A stretch of 64,000 bases of DNA, taken from contig DATNEW010000050.1 in the NCBI GenBank assembly GCA_035606695.1, positions 124,001 to 188,000 on the forward strand, read 5' to 3'. The translations under genes and the position numbers were made by a program. Shown here piece after piece: positions 8,743 through 64,000 of the stretch. The notes below the pieces were generated by a model. That model did no database searches. It was not told the DNA's origin and saw only the letters and a program-made list of their open reading frames with translations. Each line of letters opens with the position of its first letter. Positions within the stretch are counted from its first letter, which is position 1. The DNA is from Gemmatimonadaceae bacterium (lineage in GTDB: Bacteria; Gemmatimonadota; Gemmatimonadetes; Gemmatimonadales; Gemmatimonadaceae).

Positions 8743-8834
8743 GTCATTCCGAGCGAAGCGAGGAATCTTGCGTGGGGGTAGAGCGGCCAGTCTCTCTACC
8801 GGGACAGAAGATTCCTCGCTGCGCTCGGAATGAC
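8743..8834. repeat. GTCATTCC-type palindromic element
   Basis: A 92-bp element with inverted arms: GTCATTCCGAGCGAAGCGAG at the left and CTCGCTGCGCTCGGAATGAC at the right, with GAATCT/AGATTC pairing inside. It sits between the amidohydrolase start and the 3' end of the next gene, and its left end overlaps the amidohydrolase's alternative ATG. Related copies lie at 24828, 34418 and 41856. Confidence 0.9.
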
Positions 8835-8888
8835 AAGCAGGCTCGGAATGACAAGCAGGCTCGGAATGACAAGCGCGCTCGGAATGAC
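8835..8888. repeat. 18-bp tandem repeat, three copies
   Basis: AAGCAGGCTCGGAATGAC occurs twice exactly (8835-8852, 8853-8870) and once with two changes (8871-8888). It copies the right arm of the adjacent palindrome, so the array probably grew by slippage or arm duplication. A degenerate end (AGGCACGCTC) runs into the histidine kinase stop codon at 8898-8900. Confidence 0.92.
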
Positions 8889-8897
8889 AGGCACGCT

Positions 8898-19361: not shown

Positions 19362-19471
19362 GGCGCGCCTGCGGCGCAAGCAATGGCGCGCTACGCGCAG
19401 GGAATGGCGCGCTACGCGCAGGGAATGGCGCGCTGCGCGCGGGGAATGGCGCGCTGCGCGCGGGGGGCAGC
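19362..19471. repeat. Array of ~20-22-bp GC-palindrome units
   Basis: About five further units of the type AATGGCGCGCTACGCGCAGG follow the left inverted repeat; the inner ones are two exact pairs (TACGCGCA and TGCGCGCG versions). Each unit is a small hairpin (GCGCGC/GCGCGC). The array ends just before the toxin stop codon at 19483 and may also act as a transcription end for zwf. Confidence 0.85.
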
Positions 19472-19482
19472 AGCCCGCGCTA

Positions 19483-39851: not shown

Positions 39852-41459
39852 TTATCGAGTAGCGGCGGCGCGCAGCGCGGCGCGCGATCCCGTGACTGAA
39901 CTGACCAGCATGCCGACGATCACCACCGTCACGGCGCCGACGACGTTGTGCCAGAGAAACGACACCGACGGCGCGCCGAAGTTCACGGCGGCGACAGCAC
40001 ACATGCCCGAGATCAAGCCGATGAAGGCGCCGGTCGCGTTCGCGCGCGCGATCATGCTCAGCAGGAAGACGCCGAGGATCGATCCGTAAAAGAACGATCC
40101 AAACCGGTTCACGACCTCGATCAGCGAGCCGAGGTTCACCGCATACGTCGCGACGATGCAGGCCAGGAGGCCCCAAAGCGCCGTCGCGGTCCGCGACACC
40201 TTGAGGAAATGTGAATCGGGGCCGTCGCTCCGCACCCATCGCTTGTAGAAGTCGACGACGCTCGCCGTCGAGAGCGACATCAGCTCGCCGGAGATGGCGT
40301 TCATCGCCGCGGCGATTACCGCCGCGATGAAGATGCCGGCGAGGCCGATCGGCAGATGGTCGATCACGAAGCGCGGGATGATGTAGTTCACGTCCTTGGC
40401 CGGCTGCCCGGTAACCTTGCTCGCCAGGTCGAGCGCGCGCGTCCGCACGGAATCGCGCGCGGCGGGCGTGGACGCGGCGGCGAACTGCTGCTCGAGCTGG
40501 CCATACAGCACGGGTTGCGCGTGTCTCACCGCGCGCTCGTGCGCGGGATTGAACAACAACGGCTGTTGATGATATTGATAGAATACGAATACCAATACTC
40601 CAACAAGCAGCACCAGGGCCTGGAGGGGAATCTTCCAGTAGGCGCTGATCAGGAGCGAGCTCCGCGCTTCGTCCACCGACTTCGCCGACAGATAGCGCTG
40701 CACCTGGCTCTGATCCGTGCCGAAATACGAGAGTTGCAGGAACGTTCCGCCGATCAGGCCCGACCAGAACGTGTAGGTGTTCGTGAGGCTGAACGAGAAA
40801 TCGAACACCTTGAGCCGCCCCGCCGACCCCGCGAGATGCAGCGCCGCACTCGGCGTCACGGGAATCTGCACCAGCAGCACGACGACCATCGCGATCAACG
40901 CACCGACGATCAGGAACATCTGCTTGACGTCAACCCACGTCAGCGCCTGCACGCCGCCGATCATGGTGTAGAGAATCGCCGGCACGCCGATCAATGCCAC
41001 CGACCACGCGACGGGCCAGCCGAAAATCGCCGAGAAGACCACGGCAGGCGCGGAGATGATCGTCCCGCACGACATGGCGCGCGAGATCAGAAACAGAAAC
41101 GCGGTGAGGGAGCGCGTCTTCGCGTCGAAGCGGCGCTCGAGAAACTCGTACGCGGTGTACACGCGTGCACCGTGCAGAAACGGCACGAGCGTCACGCCGA
41201 GAATGACCATCGCCAGCGGCAGCCCGAAATAGAACTGAATGAAGCGCATGCCGTCGGTCGCGCCCTGGCCGGTCGTGCCGATCATCGTGACGGCCGAGAG
41301 TTGCGTCGCCATCACGGACAATCCAACCGCCCACCACGGCAAGCTGCGGTTGGCGAGGAAGTAGCCTTCGATCTCTTTCGTCCCGCGCGAGCGGCGGATG
41401 CCGTCGATCACGATGTACGTGATCCAGCCGACGACGATCACCCAGTTGAGTGGATTCAC
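39852..41459 (-). CDS. Sodium:solute symporter (SSS family)
   Basis: A 535-residue membrane symporter with ~13 hydrophobic segments. Family blocks: EIEGYFLANRSLPWW, LSVMATQLSAVTMIG, ARVYTAYEFLERRFD, LISRAMSCGTIISAPAVVF, YTMIGGVQALTWVDV, and FGTDQSQVQRYLSAKS with AAAMNAISGELMSLSTASVVDFYKRW (read in two pieces). Substrate is unknown; relatives take up sugars, carboxylates or amino acids. It starts at GTG 41459, one base after the stop of the 31-residue membrane peptide, and belongs to the leftward run from sucA. Confidence 0.93.
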   Translation of the reverse strand: MNPLNWVIVVGWITYIVIDGIRRSRGTKEIEGYFLANRSLPWWAVGLSVMATQLSAVTMIGTTGQGATDGMRFIQFYFGLPLAMVILGVTLVPFLHGARVYTAYEFLERRFDAKTRSLTAFLFLISRAMSCGTIISAPAVVFSAIFGWPVAWSVALIGVPAILYTMIGGVQALTWVDVKQMFLIVGALIAMVVVLLVQIPVTPSAALHLAGSAGRLKVFDFSFSLTNTYTFWSGLIGGTFLQLSYFGTDQSQVQRYLSAKSVDEARSSLLISAYWKIPLQALVLLVGVLVFVFYQYHQQPLLFNPAHERAVRHAQPVLYGQLEQQFAAASTPAARDSVRTRALDLASKVTGQPAKDVNYIIPRFVIDHLPIGLAGIFIAAVIAAAMNAISGELMSLSTASVVDFYKRWVRSDGPDSHFLKVSRTATALWGLLACIVATYAVNLGSLIEVVNRFGSFFYGSILGVFLLSMIARANATGAFIGLISGMCAVAAVNFGAPSVSFLWHNVVGAVTVVIVGMLVSSVTGSRAALRAAATR

Positions 41460-41460
41460 G

Positions 41461-41556
41461 TTACGGCGTGTACACGCGCTGAAGAATCCAGAGGAGCACG
41501 AGCGTGATCACCTGCACGCCGAGCACGCGAGCGAGATTGCGTTGAAAGCGACTCAT
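41461..41556 (-). CDS. 31-residue single-helix membrane peptide
   Basis: A tiny ORF: MSRFQRNLAR, then a hydrophobic helix (VLGVQVITLVLLWILQ, residues 11-26) and RVYTP. Its ATG overlaps the LysE stop (ATGA) and its TAA ends one base before the symporter GTG, so it is fully embedded in the operon. The basic N-terminus suggests an N-in membrane helix. It may be a small accessory subunit of the symporter or the LysE exporter, as some transporters have small one-helix partners. It could also be non-functional leader coding; function is unknown. Confidence 0.5.
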   Translation of the reverse strand: MSRFQRNLARVLGVQVITLVLLWILQRVYTP

Positions 41557-42257
41557 CGCCGGTCCCACGCGAGTCGCGCACCGAGCGCGATGAGCAGGCC
41601 GCCGGTGAGACGCTCCAACGTGGCGCGCACACGCGGCCGCGTGAGCACGACGCCGAGACGATCGACGAACCACGCGTATGCGGTGAGCCACACGAGGCCC
41701 ATCGGGATGTGAATGCTCGCCAGCAGTAAACTGCGGCGCAGTACGCTCTCGCCGGGCGAGATGAATTGCGGGAGGAAGGTGAGATAAAAAATCGCCACCT
41801 TCGGGTTGAGAATGTTGGTGAGGAAGCCCTGGAGGAAGGGTTTGAGCAGAGGCATGTCATCCCGAGCGAGCGGAGCGAGTCGAGGGACCCCCTTCTCAGC
41901 GGAGCGCTGCTCGTCCGCCAGGACGGGAGTCCCTCGACTCCGGCGCTGCGCGCCTCCGCTCGGGATGACCACACTTTCCCGTATCGCCTGCACCCCGATC
42001 CACACCAGATACGCCGCCCCCACGGTCTTCACCACATTGTACGCCGTCGCCGAGGTCGCGAGGATCGCCGACAGCCCAAGCGCAGAGAACGTCGCGTGCA
42101 CCACGCAGCCGAGACAGATGCCGACGATCGTCAGCATCGTACGACGCCGGCCGTAGGCCAGCACGTTGCGCGTCACCAGCGCCATGTCCGCGCCGGGCAG
42201 AATCGTCAACACCGCGGCGACGCCAATGAATGCGAACAGCCGCGGATCGATCGACAT
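41553..42257 (-). CDS. LysE/RhtB-family exporter with in-frame repeat insertion
   Basis: A 234-residue exporter of the LysE/RhtB type (amino-acid or metabolite efflux). Helices 1-3 (LTILPGADMALVTRNVLAYG near residues 18-35, then AAYLVWIGVQAIRES) and helices 4-6 (FLQGFLTNILNPKVAIFYLTF) are intact and in register. Between them, residues ~97-134 are encoded by a 114-bp GTCATCCC palindrome (41856-41969), a hydrophilic loop absent from normal family members. Without it the protein would be 196 residues. The insert is a multiple of three and has no stop, so the exporter may still work. Confidence 0.88.
   Translation of the reverse strand: MSIDPRLFAFIGVAAVLTILPGADMALVTRNVLAYGRRRTMLTIVGICLGCVVHATFSALGLSAILATSATAYNVVKTVGAAYLVWIGVQAIRESVVIPSGGAQRRSRGTPVLADEQRSAEKGVPRLAPLARDDMPLLKPFLQGFLTNILNPKVAIFYLTFLPQFISPGESVLRRSLLLASIHIPMGLVWLTAYAWFVDRLGVVLTRPRVRATLERLTGGLLIALGARLAWDRR
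41856..41969. repeat. 114-bp GTCATCCC palindrome inserted within the LysE gene
   Basis: Ends are GTCATCCCGAGCG and CGCTCGGGATGAC (13-bp perfect inverted ends); an inner GAGGGAC/GTCCCTC pair also matches. Length 114 bp is divisible by three. It is the same family as the elements at 8743, 24828 and 34418, but here inside a coding sequence. Confidence 0.93.
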
Positions 42258-42274: not shown

Positions 42275-44905
42275 CTAGGGTTTCGGCTGCTCGGACCGCC
42301 GCACCGCGGGACGCGTCGCGGCCTTCTGATTCGCCGACAGCAGATTGATGAACAACCGCGCTGCTCCCGGATTCCCCGCGGGCAGCTGCCGGAAAAATGC
42401 GAACGTCGTATAGATGTACGTACCCTTGCCGACCGGCGCCACCAGGACCGCCGCATCGTTCGGCGGCTCACCCGGATCGTTGATCGAGAACACCGTGCGA
42501 TAGCGCGCGTCGAACGAACGCGGCATGTACGACGAACGTTCCTGCACCCAATTCGAGAAATCGCGCTCGGTAATCCGATTCGGCAGCGTCACGATCGGCG
42601 AGCCCGGGTCGATCACACGCACCGGCGCGGTCTCGTCGGTGACTCGATCCGCCGCCGGACGACTCAACGTGATCGGATACGGCAGAATCCCCGGCTGCTG
42701 ATACGGAAACTGGCCGTACTGGACCACCATCGTGCCGCCATTGCGCACGAACTGCATGAGCAGCGGATTGTTCGTGACGAGCGCCTTGTTCGCTTCGTAC
42801 GCGCGCGGTCCGACGACGATCGTCGAGAACCCCGACAGCTTCGCCTGCGCCAACGTCGCCGGATCGAGCTCGACGACGGGGAGGCCAAGCTCCTCGAGCA
42901 TCGGCATGACGTTGTCGCCAACGCCGCGGATGTAGCCGACGCGAAGATTCGCGAACGTCGCATCCACCGCCTCGACTTGGACGGTCGAGCGCCGATAATA
43001 GCGCAGCGGCCGAATGTGCTCGTACTCGATCGGCACGAAACCGAGCGCGAACGTGCGGCCTGGGCTTGCACTCGTCGTTGCCACGGCGCGAATCGAATCG
43101 CGGCCAGGCGCCATGCGGCCGTGCACTCGAAAGTGCAACGTCGCATCGCCAAAGGCCGGCAAGGTCACGTGACGATGCGAACTGTCGGCGCTCAATCCGG
43201 CCGGCAGCGCGAGCGACACCTCGACGTCGCGCGGCGCCGTGGCGGCCGAGTGCACGTACACGAGCAGCGTGCGGTCGAGGGGCGCGTTGGCGCGCGCGTA
43301 TTCGATCTCGTGCTCCAGCAACACCGAAATCTCCGGCACCGTAGCAACGGGGCGCCGCACTTCGCCGCGCGCGGGGTCAGCGAACCGATACACGATCGGC
43401 GCCTCCGTGACAGGCACCGACACACCGCCCATCCGCAGCACGACTTCCACGCCGGAGCTCTGCAAATGATCCTCGCCCGCGATCATCTCCGACAACGGCT
43501 GATTGAACATGTCGCCGCGCATCGGGCGGCGCAGCCACCATGGAATGGTCGGTGAATCGGCGCCGACGAAATGCAACATCTGGCGTCCGACGCTGTCGGG
43601 CAGAATTGGAGGTACGCGCTTTGACGCAACGCCGAGCTGGCCGATCAGCGACGCGCTCTCGAGCGCGATCGGCGACGAACCTCGGTTGTATACCGAAACC
43701 GTGACGGGCATGGTGTCGCGCACGGCGATCAACTCGCGCGGCGCCGTTGCTTCGACGATCACACCGGCGGCATCGAGCAGCGCGTTGACGGCTCTCTCAC
43801 GCGTCGCACTGAGCGCCAGCGCCAGGTCTCCTTCCTCTCCCCGGCAACTCGGCGTATCCGGATCGATCACATCGCGTGTCGTGCACGTGATTCCGGCATC
43901 CGCACGCGACGCAAGCCGCACGTACGATTCCAGCGGGGCGACCACTTTCTGCGGTTGCGTCAGATCGAGCGATGCGCGAACCTGTCCTTCGACGATCGGC
44001 AGCGAGTCGATCGCCGTGCGCACCGAGTCGGCGGTCCGAAGCGAGTGGAATCGCGCCCAGCTCGTGTCGATTCCGTCGAACAACCCTTTCTCGCGCGCGT
44101 TGACATCGGAGACGCGCGACACCTCGAGCACCACACCGCTGAATCGCGGTCCGTGCTGCGGCAGCGCACCCTGGCCCTGCGAGCGATGCTGCGACCGGCT
44201 CGCCGTCGCGACCTCGGAGTACGACGTGCCGAGCAATGGGTCGTACTGGCCGACGTTGAACGACAACGATCCGCCTCCGCCGCGACGCAGTCGATAGAAC
44301 TTGAGCGGCGTCCACGGCGCGAGCCCGCCCAGCTTCGAGGGCGGGAAGCGCACCGAATCCGCCGCGGCGTCGAACACCTCGCGCGCGATCACGCCCGAGA
44401 ACTGGTGCTGCCCATGTCCATCGGCCGGCGTTCCGGTGAATACCGCGATGATCACCTGCGGCCGGAACGCGCGGACGATCGCCACGGCATCCGAGAGGAT
44501 GGAATCCTTCGGCCAATGCTGAAGCGCGTCGTCCAGCGTTTTAGAGAATCCGAAATCGTACGCGCGCGCGAAGTACTGGTGTCCGCCGTCGATGCGCCGC
44601 GCCGCGAGCAGCTCTTCGGTGCGGATCATGCCTAGTACAGGGCCGAGCTCGTTGCCGATGAGGTTCTGGCCGCCGTCGCCGCGCGTCAGCGAGAGATAGG
44701 CCGTCTCGACGTGCTTCGCTTTCGCGAGGTACGCAATGAGCTGCGTGTCTTCATCATCGGGATGCGCGCCGATCATCAGCACGCGCGTCGTGGTGCCGAG
44801 TCCGGCTGCGAGCTCGCCCAATGCAGCGGCGCCGCGTCCCTGCGCGTGGAGACGCGGCGCAACGAGCGCGGCGATCAGCGACAGCAATACCGTACGCTTC
44901 ATCAT
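42275..44905 (-). CDS. Secreted PIG-L family deacetylase-like protein
   Basis: An 876-residue exported protein (signal peptide ending near LHAQ). The N-terminal PIG-L/LmbE domain (residues ~40-280) has the zinc motif AHPDDEDTQLI and SLTRGDGGQNLIG, with GHGQHQFSG as a probable later metal/catalytic segment. The remaining ~600 residues contain beta-rich regions and a Rossmann/glutamine-amidotransferase-like part near the end (VVELDPATLAQ, RNGGTMVVQYGQFPYQ). It may remove N-acetyl groups from an envelope sugar. Start ATG 44905 overlaps the sucA stop (ATGA), an unexpected partner. Confidence 0.87.
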   Translation of the reverse strand: MMKRTVLLSLIAALVAPRLHAQGRGAAALGELAAGLGTTTRVLMIGAHPDDEDTQLIAYLAKAKHVETAYLSLTRGDGGQNLIGNELGPVLGMIRTEELLAARRIDGGHQYFARAYDFGFSKTLDDALQHWPKDSILSDAVAIVRAFRPQVIIAVFTGTPADGHGQHQFSGVIAREVFDAAADSVRFPPSKLGGLAPWTPLKFYRLRRGGGGSLSFNVGQYDPLLGTSYSEVATASRSQHRSQGQGALPQHGPRFSGVVLEVSRVSDVNAREKGLFDGIDTSWARFHSLRTADSVRTAIDSLPIVEGQVRASLDLTQPQKVVAPLESYVRLASRADAGITCTTRDVIDPDTPSCRGEEGDLALALSATRERAVNALLDAAGVIVEATAPRELIAVRDTMPVTVSVYNRGSSPIALESASLIGQLGVASKRVPPILPDSVGRQMLHFVGADSPTIPWWLRRPMRGDMFNQPLSEMIAGEDHLQSSGVEVVLRMGGVSVPVTEAPIVYRFADPARGEVRRPVATVPEISVLLEHEIEYARANAPLDRTLLVYVHSAATAPRDVEVSLALPAGLSADSSHRHVTLPAFGDATLHFRVHGRMAPGRDSIRAVATTSASPGRTFALGFVPIEYEHIRPLRYYRRSTVQVEAVDATFANLRVGYIRGVGDNVMPMLEELGLPVVELDPATLAQAKLSGFSTIVVGPRAYEANKALVTNNPLLMQFVRNGGTMVVQYGQFPYQQPGILPYPITLSRPAADRVTDETAPVRVIDPGSPIVTLPNRITERDFSNWVQERSSYMPRSFDARYRTVFSINDPGEPPNDAAVLVAPVGKGTYIYTTFAFFRQLPAGNPGAARLFINLLSANQKAATRPAVRRSEQPKP

Positions 44906-59878: not shown

Positions 59879-64000
<4,122 letters not shown>

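Follow-up and report, generated by a model that had tools for sequence, protein, structure and literature searches.

A 31-residue, single-helix membrane peptide is encoded directly upstream of a sodium:solute symporter of the SSS/SLC5 family in a Gemmatimonadaceae genome, and probably acts as a dedicated accessory subunit of that symporter, in the way that MAP17 acts on SGLT2. The peptide is missed by gene finders. It is kept phylum-wide at the same place, and selection acts on it in one reading frame. The window, i.e. the whole stretch of 64,000 nt that was analysed, comes from a genome assembly of 5.9 Mb in 50 contigs. The features at the locus are as follows.

42275..44905, minus strand: PIG-L family deacetylase (PF02585, E 6.8e-14)
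41553..42257, minus strand: LysE-type exporter (PF01810, E 1.8e-32), a flanking gene and no conserved partner
41868..41888, no strand assigned: copy of a dispersed repeat, GAGCGGAGCGAGTCGAGGGAC, inside the LysE gene
41553..41556, minus strand: ATGA overlap of the LysE stop TGA (41555-41553) and the peptide start ATG
41461..41556, minus strand: gene of the 31-residue one-helix peptide (matched by its profile in 171 genomes out of 395, 168 convincing; dN/dS 0.289)
41556-41554 and 41463-41461, minus strand: start ATG and stop TAA of the peptide gene
39852..41459 with the stop included, minus strand: sodium:solute symporter (SSS/SLC5) of 535 residues with a GTG start (PF00474, TIGR00813)

The peptide, MSRFQRNLARVLGVQVITLVLLWILQRVYTP, is read from 41556 to 41461, and a single base separates its TAA from the GTG of the symporter (41459-41457). 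It possesses one hydrophobic segment behind a basic N-terminus, with a best 17-residue Kyte-Doolittle mean of 2.15 in the windows starting from residues 8 and 9. Zero matches to Pfam and NCBIfam were obtained for it. A sequence-only reading of this DNA had described a 31-residue membrane-peptide ORF at this position, with its ATG overlapping the LysE stop, its TAA one base before the symporter start, and a lone hydrophobic helix following a basic N-terminus. The ORF, both junctions and the single segment are all borne out, on the minus strand, which that reading had left unnamed.

A symporter search was performed in 59 genomes, the host's own included, and returned matches at E<=1e-60 in 26 of them. 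The DNA upstream of all 26 symporter loci (L001, L006-L030) encodes a small ORF of the same pattern, F+xTLxRVLxVQVxxLxLLWLLQxRY. A profile was built from these 26 peptides and run on 395 genomes sampled from the phylum, where it matched in 171 genomes, 168 of them convincingly. The symporter is found at E<=1e-60 in 198 of the same 395 genomes and at ortholog level (E<=1e-100) in 170, of which 167 also have the peptide. In the three peptide-less genomes (G138, G162 and G173) the contigs end within the symporter N-terminus. Three genomes with only the C-terminal half of the ortholog at a contig edge (G147, G189 and G201) were left unjudged. Four peptide matches lie outside the ortholog-level set. 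One of them (G328, E 1.6e-7) was retained, and the symporter there is split over contig ends. Three weak matches (G353, G386 and G061, all with E near 0.005) were rejected as chance: 16-24 of 32 positions are matched, and two of the three fall inside open frames, one of 496 and one of 755 residues.

A total of 80 more loci were read, from 126 places in further genomes, among at least 150 peptide places listed. All 80, which were picked by peptide match, have the symporter downstream, and the peptide precedes the symporter in 106 of the 106 loci read (26 and 80). The distance from peptide stop to symporter start ranges from -256 to +4 nt and is within 20 nt in 94 of the 106, where one symporter start (L248) is a fallback guess. 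By gene order, the symporter is the fixed partner of the peptide, and it is very likely that the two are partners in function as well. Two other SSS paralogs in the host genome, 24-33% identical, have no such ORF upstream.

Across 106 distinct sequences, compared over a core of 25 codons, sites differ on average by 0.34, 0.22 and 0.52 at the first, second and third codon positions. The true frame gives a dN/dS of 0.289 with zero stops over 45 disjoint pairs of 4-30% divergence, against 0.88-2.54 in the five other frames, in which 1 to 40 pairs were dropped for stops. Peptide and symporter share one frame in 42 of the 106 loci, with a stop codon between them each time, and the two chains are thus kept apart. 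The peptide is near certainly a real, coding protein. The sequence-only reading had proposed a search for the same peptide before SSS symporters in relatives, with substitutions biased to synonymous sites. Both are present at the 106 loci, and its idea of an overlooked symporter subunit is now supported, as the best reading of a candidate, by the conservation and the frame-specific selection.

Seven genomes whose best symporter is 47-51% identical lack the motif and have a coupled one-helix ORF of their own, for example ...GRIGIFPSWNALYATVVVYTLAMIVLLYVFTVLLDYSSP, and an eighth sister case, a fragment of G386 (L085), agrees with them. The coupled ORF of this sister group (L068-L074 and L085) follows the pattern GIFPSWxxxYxxVVxYT... 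A wider set was composed of the best 80 of 573 relatives in named genomes, with an alignment of the sister symporters and the window's symporter as the query. An ORF with a hydrophobic segment is found upstream in 76 of these best 80 of 573, mostly with an ATGA overlap, and 66 of the 76 end within -20..+4. As a control, the same filter was applied to 199 other long ORFs of the wider loci; 65 pass, 37 of them within -20..+4. With a background this high, the 76 of 80 by itself does not prove the case in the wider clade, for which the shared motif and the wider dN/dS carry more weight than the loose-filter count. For 24 pairs of the wider set, dN/dS is 0.25 in frame with zero stops, and the other frames give 0.91-2.08 or stops only. 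Similar ORFs occur in Acidobacteriota, Bacteroidota, Proteobacteria and other phyla. Four of the best 80 loci (L119, L127, L146 and L155) have no such ORF by filter or by eye, so the helper is not universal. On one contig labelled 'Acidobacteria' (L112), which may be misbinned, the symporter shares 76% identity with the Gemmatimonadota sister group.

Three sets of peptides were compared as profiles: the phylum peptides (A1), an acidobacterial set (A6) and a wide set (A5). A1 matches A6 with a score of 39.2 (probability 96.7), and A6 matches A5 with 42.1 (probability 96.9). Fifty hydrophobic windows of the symporter served as controls and reached maxima of 12.6 (A1), 10.6 (A6) and 19.5 (A5); the direct score of A1 to A5, 18.5 (33), is no better than the A5 control maximum. 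Common descent of the A1 and A5 peptides, in two steps via A6, thus appears well supported from these profiles. Searches of the 26 A1 members in Pfam and NCBIfam gave only single weak matches to other families (best E 0.021). None of seven sister and ten distant peptides exceeds the curated cut-offs of the two libraries, the strongest weak match among them being DUF2976 (E 0.0014) with a Mucilaginibacter peptide. A plasmid search for annotated relatives returned five weak records, none useful.

The symporter itself is firmly assigned, with 156.6 bits to PF00474 (E 1.2e-45; curated cut-off 22.8) and 236.4 bits to TIGR00813 (curated cut-off 184), and a kinase domain is absent from its Pfam result. 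Its solved relatives include 5nv9 (SiaT, E 3.9e-44), vSGLT, SMCT1, SMVT, NIS and SGLT1/2. The ortholog of locus L024 was modelled chained with its own peptide, and has the LeuT-like SSS fold by comparison with SiaT 5nva (Z 43.9, rmsd 2.4, 468 aligned); its Z score to SGLT2 8hez_A is 36.8. The alignment to SGLT2 chains ends by residue 578, and TM13 of SGLT2 lies beyond that residue. Every SSS structure match begins at residue 35 of the model or further on, and the sole match from residue 1 is the lower-ranked 9f6n (DMT1), a different transporter.

The chained models were made for loci with peptide and symporter in one frame, with the intervening stop read as glycine. With an alignment of 36 such chained rows, the L024 model is poor over the peptide: its mean pLDDT is 73, and three blocks over residues 1-30 have 60, 60 and 47. 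An alignment of 88 rows, of which 48 are chained, raises the mean pLDDT to 89 with a pTM of 0.87 and a floppy link, and the same blocks reach 80, 81 and 61. This second fold is of good quality as a whole and weaker towards the C-terminus of the peptide helix, over its last third; docking cannot be read from it.

A physical subunit is the likely role of this candidate. The dedicated linkage, the selection on the helix and the synthesis just before the partner are as expected of a small subunit. The N-side of the peptide carries on average 2.5 K+R and 1.3 D+E, and the last six residues 0.92 K+R and 0.02 D+E, a charge distribution by which the N-in orientation is weakly favoured. The peptide would insert with its N-terminus in and its C-terminus out. 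As it is made first, from the same message, it would meet the N-terminal helix of the nascent symporter, and may then pack on the rim of the transporter through the conserved V11, Q15, L22 and Q26. Packed in this manner, it could stabilise the folding, the membrane level or the activity of the symporter.

The main rival explanation is that the small gene is a translational-coupling leader, for which the delivery of ribosomes to the symporter start matters and the peptide product is secondary. The ATGA-type overlaps and the short gaps fit this explanation, and so do two counts at the start codons. In 42 of the 106 loci the chosen peptide start is preceded, at 4-8 nt, by a TANNNT element, where shuffled sequences predict 2.3, and all 42 elements stand before ATG starts (for example in L026, L029 and L030), the choice of starts favouring ATG by construction (88 ATG and 18 GTG). 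This layout suggests leaderless transcription in Gemmatimonadota; the window copy, which sits inside an operon, is without the element. A Shine-Dalgarno-like 4-mer was found 4-16 nt upstream of only 13 of 105 symporter starts, with 6.7 expected from shuffles, so production of the symporter may rely on the peptide gene being translated. A precedent is CbrX, which is essential for the production of the SLC5-domain kinase CbrA (PMC6591292, in extract). However, coupling alone would not call for selection on the protein sequence of the helix (dN/dS 0.25-0.29) or for a residue pattern common to several phyla, and a gap of 256 nt in one locus speaks against it. We consider a mere leader unlikely.

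The subunit and the coupling ideas are compatible. As the first cistron of a seemingly leaderless transcript in many relatives, the gene of the proposed subunit may also bring ribosomes to the symporter start. Our judgement is evenly balanced on a broader reading, in which the symporter branch found in Gemmatimonadota, Acidobacteriota, Bacteroidota, Proteobacteria and Ignavibacteriae would be two-component, nearly each member having its own one-helix subunit of some 27-60 residues, a bacterial counterpart of the SGLT2-MAP17 pair that has not been described before. As a part of the same reading, the subunit would be encoded in many Gemmatimonadota by a leaderless first cistron, which would thereby also set the translation of the transporter.

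A regulatory micropeptide is somewhat less probable than the coupling leader. Such a peptide would bind the symporter to control it and not as a permanent subunit, for instance by targeting it to proteolysis, by shielding it from proteolysis or by inhibition, like MgtR or MgtS on their transporters. Bacterial transporters with small regulators have been described (PMC10710835, in extract), but the peptide is encoded beside the symporter in every locus read, and regulators under separate control would often lie elsewhere.

That the peptide belongs with the LysE exporter or the PIG-L deacetylase, and not with the symporter, is very improbable, though both genes are close by. LysE overlaps the peptide gene in the window. 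Within flanks of up to 1.5 kb, just 3 of the 26 loci have a LysE relative upstream (L001, L006 and L007), namely the window and the genomes G001 and G004, which belong to a single genus. The 80 further phylum loci, with about 200 nt of upstream sequence covered, and the 80 wider-clade loci yielded no LysE relative, and LysE was rejected as the peptide partner for its presence in just three loci of one genus. The sequence-only reading had placed the peptide in a LysE-peptide-symporter setting; the symporter flank of this setting is fixed, and the LysE flank is incidental. PIG-L, which stands upstream of LysE in the window, is a commoner neighbour of the peptide-symporter pair. Its start is likelier at Met 44905, although the listed ORF runs to 45193. 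Relatives of the window PIG-L were detected by tblastn in the covered flanks of 10 of the 26, 18 of the 80 phylum and 47 of the 80 wider loci (an earlier, cruder clustering count of PIG-L neighbours was 22), so that the symporter is not the sole candidate partner by context. However, PIG-L relatives are found on either side of the pair and on either strand, or are unseen, whereas the symporter follows the peptide in every one of the 106 loci, and L146 has PIG-L without the peptide.

The recurrence of this large PIG-L deacetylase near the pair in several phyla may point to an amino-sugar-like substrate. The repeat GAGCGGAGCGAGTCGAGGGAC inside the LysE gene occurs at 27 genomic places with up to 2 mismatches (0 for the reversed-pattern control); it leaves the LysE frame open and contributes a segment that looks out of place in LysE. 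By eye, a similar insert may be present in the LysE of G001 (L006). Other repeats in the window are four tandem copies with 276-nt spacing at the window edge (62872-63999), 70-73% identical to the reference, and short tandem repeats at 19374-19478 and 8823-8894 with 21-nt and 18-nt units.

A non-coding spacer that is open by chance, suggested by the mere 31 codons of the ORF, is already refuted for practical purposes by the frame-specific selection and the phylum-wide conservation.

The common view of SSS transporters is that one polypeptide makes up the whole machine, and the pairing of human SGLT2 with MAP17 had seemed peculiar to eukaryotes. If the subunit reading of the peptide is true, a conserved bacterial one-helix partner would offer simple model pairs for learning what such helices do, and expression of these symporters without the small gene would amount to expressing half the transporter. 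The peptide-symporter pair also offers a test of leaderless coupling. A short protein family that is absent from the scanned family libraries would be added to many genomes.

Several small membrane proteins are encoded beside sodium symporters, as is the case here. Known pairings are DUF3311 with MctP, DUF485 with ActP, YhdT with PanF, DUF4212 with the VC_2705 family and MetS with MetP, together with the NCBI 'symporter small accessory protein'. Several of these SSS- or NSS-associated proteins have two helices, and Pfam and NCBIfam are understood to include models for all of these families. None of DUF3311, DUF485, YhdT/DUF997, DUF4212, MetS and the NCBI small accessory protein was matched by the window peptide, the 26 A1 members, or the seven sister and ten distant peptides. 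For DUF3311, a location near an SSS symporter has been described (PMC9100948, in extract). AcrZ and other modulators with a single helix likewise lie against a large transporter (PMC10710835, in extract); the partner of AcrZ is from a different transporter family, and AcrZ was unmatched in the scans of the window peptide and the 26 members. An open-licence literature search for a described small SSS subunit retrieved CbrX and a transporter review, and not this peptide family. By a term search, a paper on a finder of small membrane proteins makes no mention of symporters (PMC10903887). Unlabelled entries for the peptide family in small-protein catalogues are possible.

CbrX of Pseudomonas putida is also a small ORF directly before an SLC5-domain gene, with which it is co-transcribed and translationally coupled. 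It has 58 residues, two predicted helices and a 17-nt overlap with its partner, the histidine kinase CbrA (PMC6591292, in extract). In contrast, the peptide here has 31 residues, one hydrophobic segment, a one-base gap and a symporter as partner, and it differs from CbrX on each of these points.

MAP17 (PDZK1IP1) with SGLT2 resembles the present pair in having one helix and a partner of the same SLC5/SSS family. Pfam includes MAP17, which is not known to be operon-encoded. The MAP17 family is not among the Pfam matches of the window peptide or the 26 members, and MAP17 is the parallel for how the peptide would work. SGLT2 needs this single-helix protein for its activity or robust surface expression, and MAP17, which touches TM13 of SGLT2, is considered to help in its folding and localisation (PMC10803289, in extract). 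That docking site lies beyond the aligned part of the symporter studied here; the alignment stops before TM13, and docking identical to that of MAP17 is therefore improbable. The peptide is not claimed to be a MAP17, yet in our reading it would work like one. On the broader two-component reading, since these symporters end before the last helix of SGLT, the peptide may supply a missing outer helix in trans.
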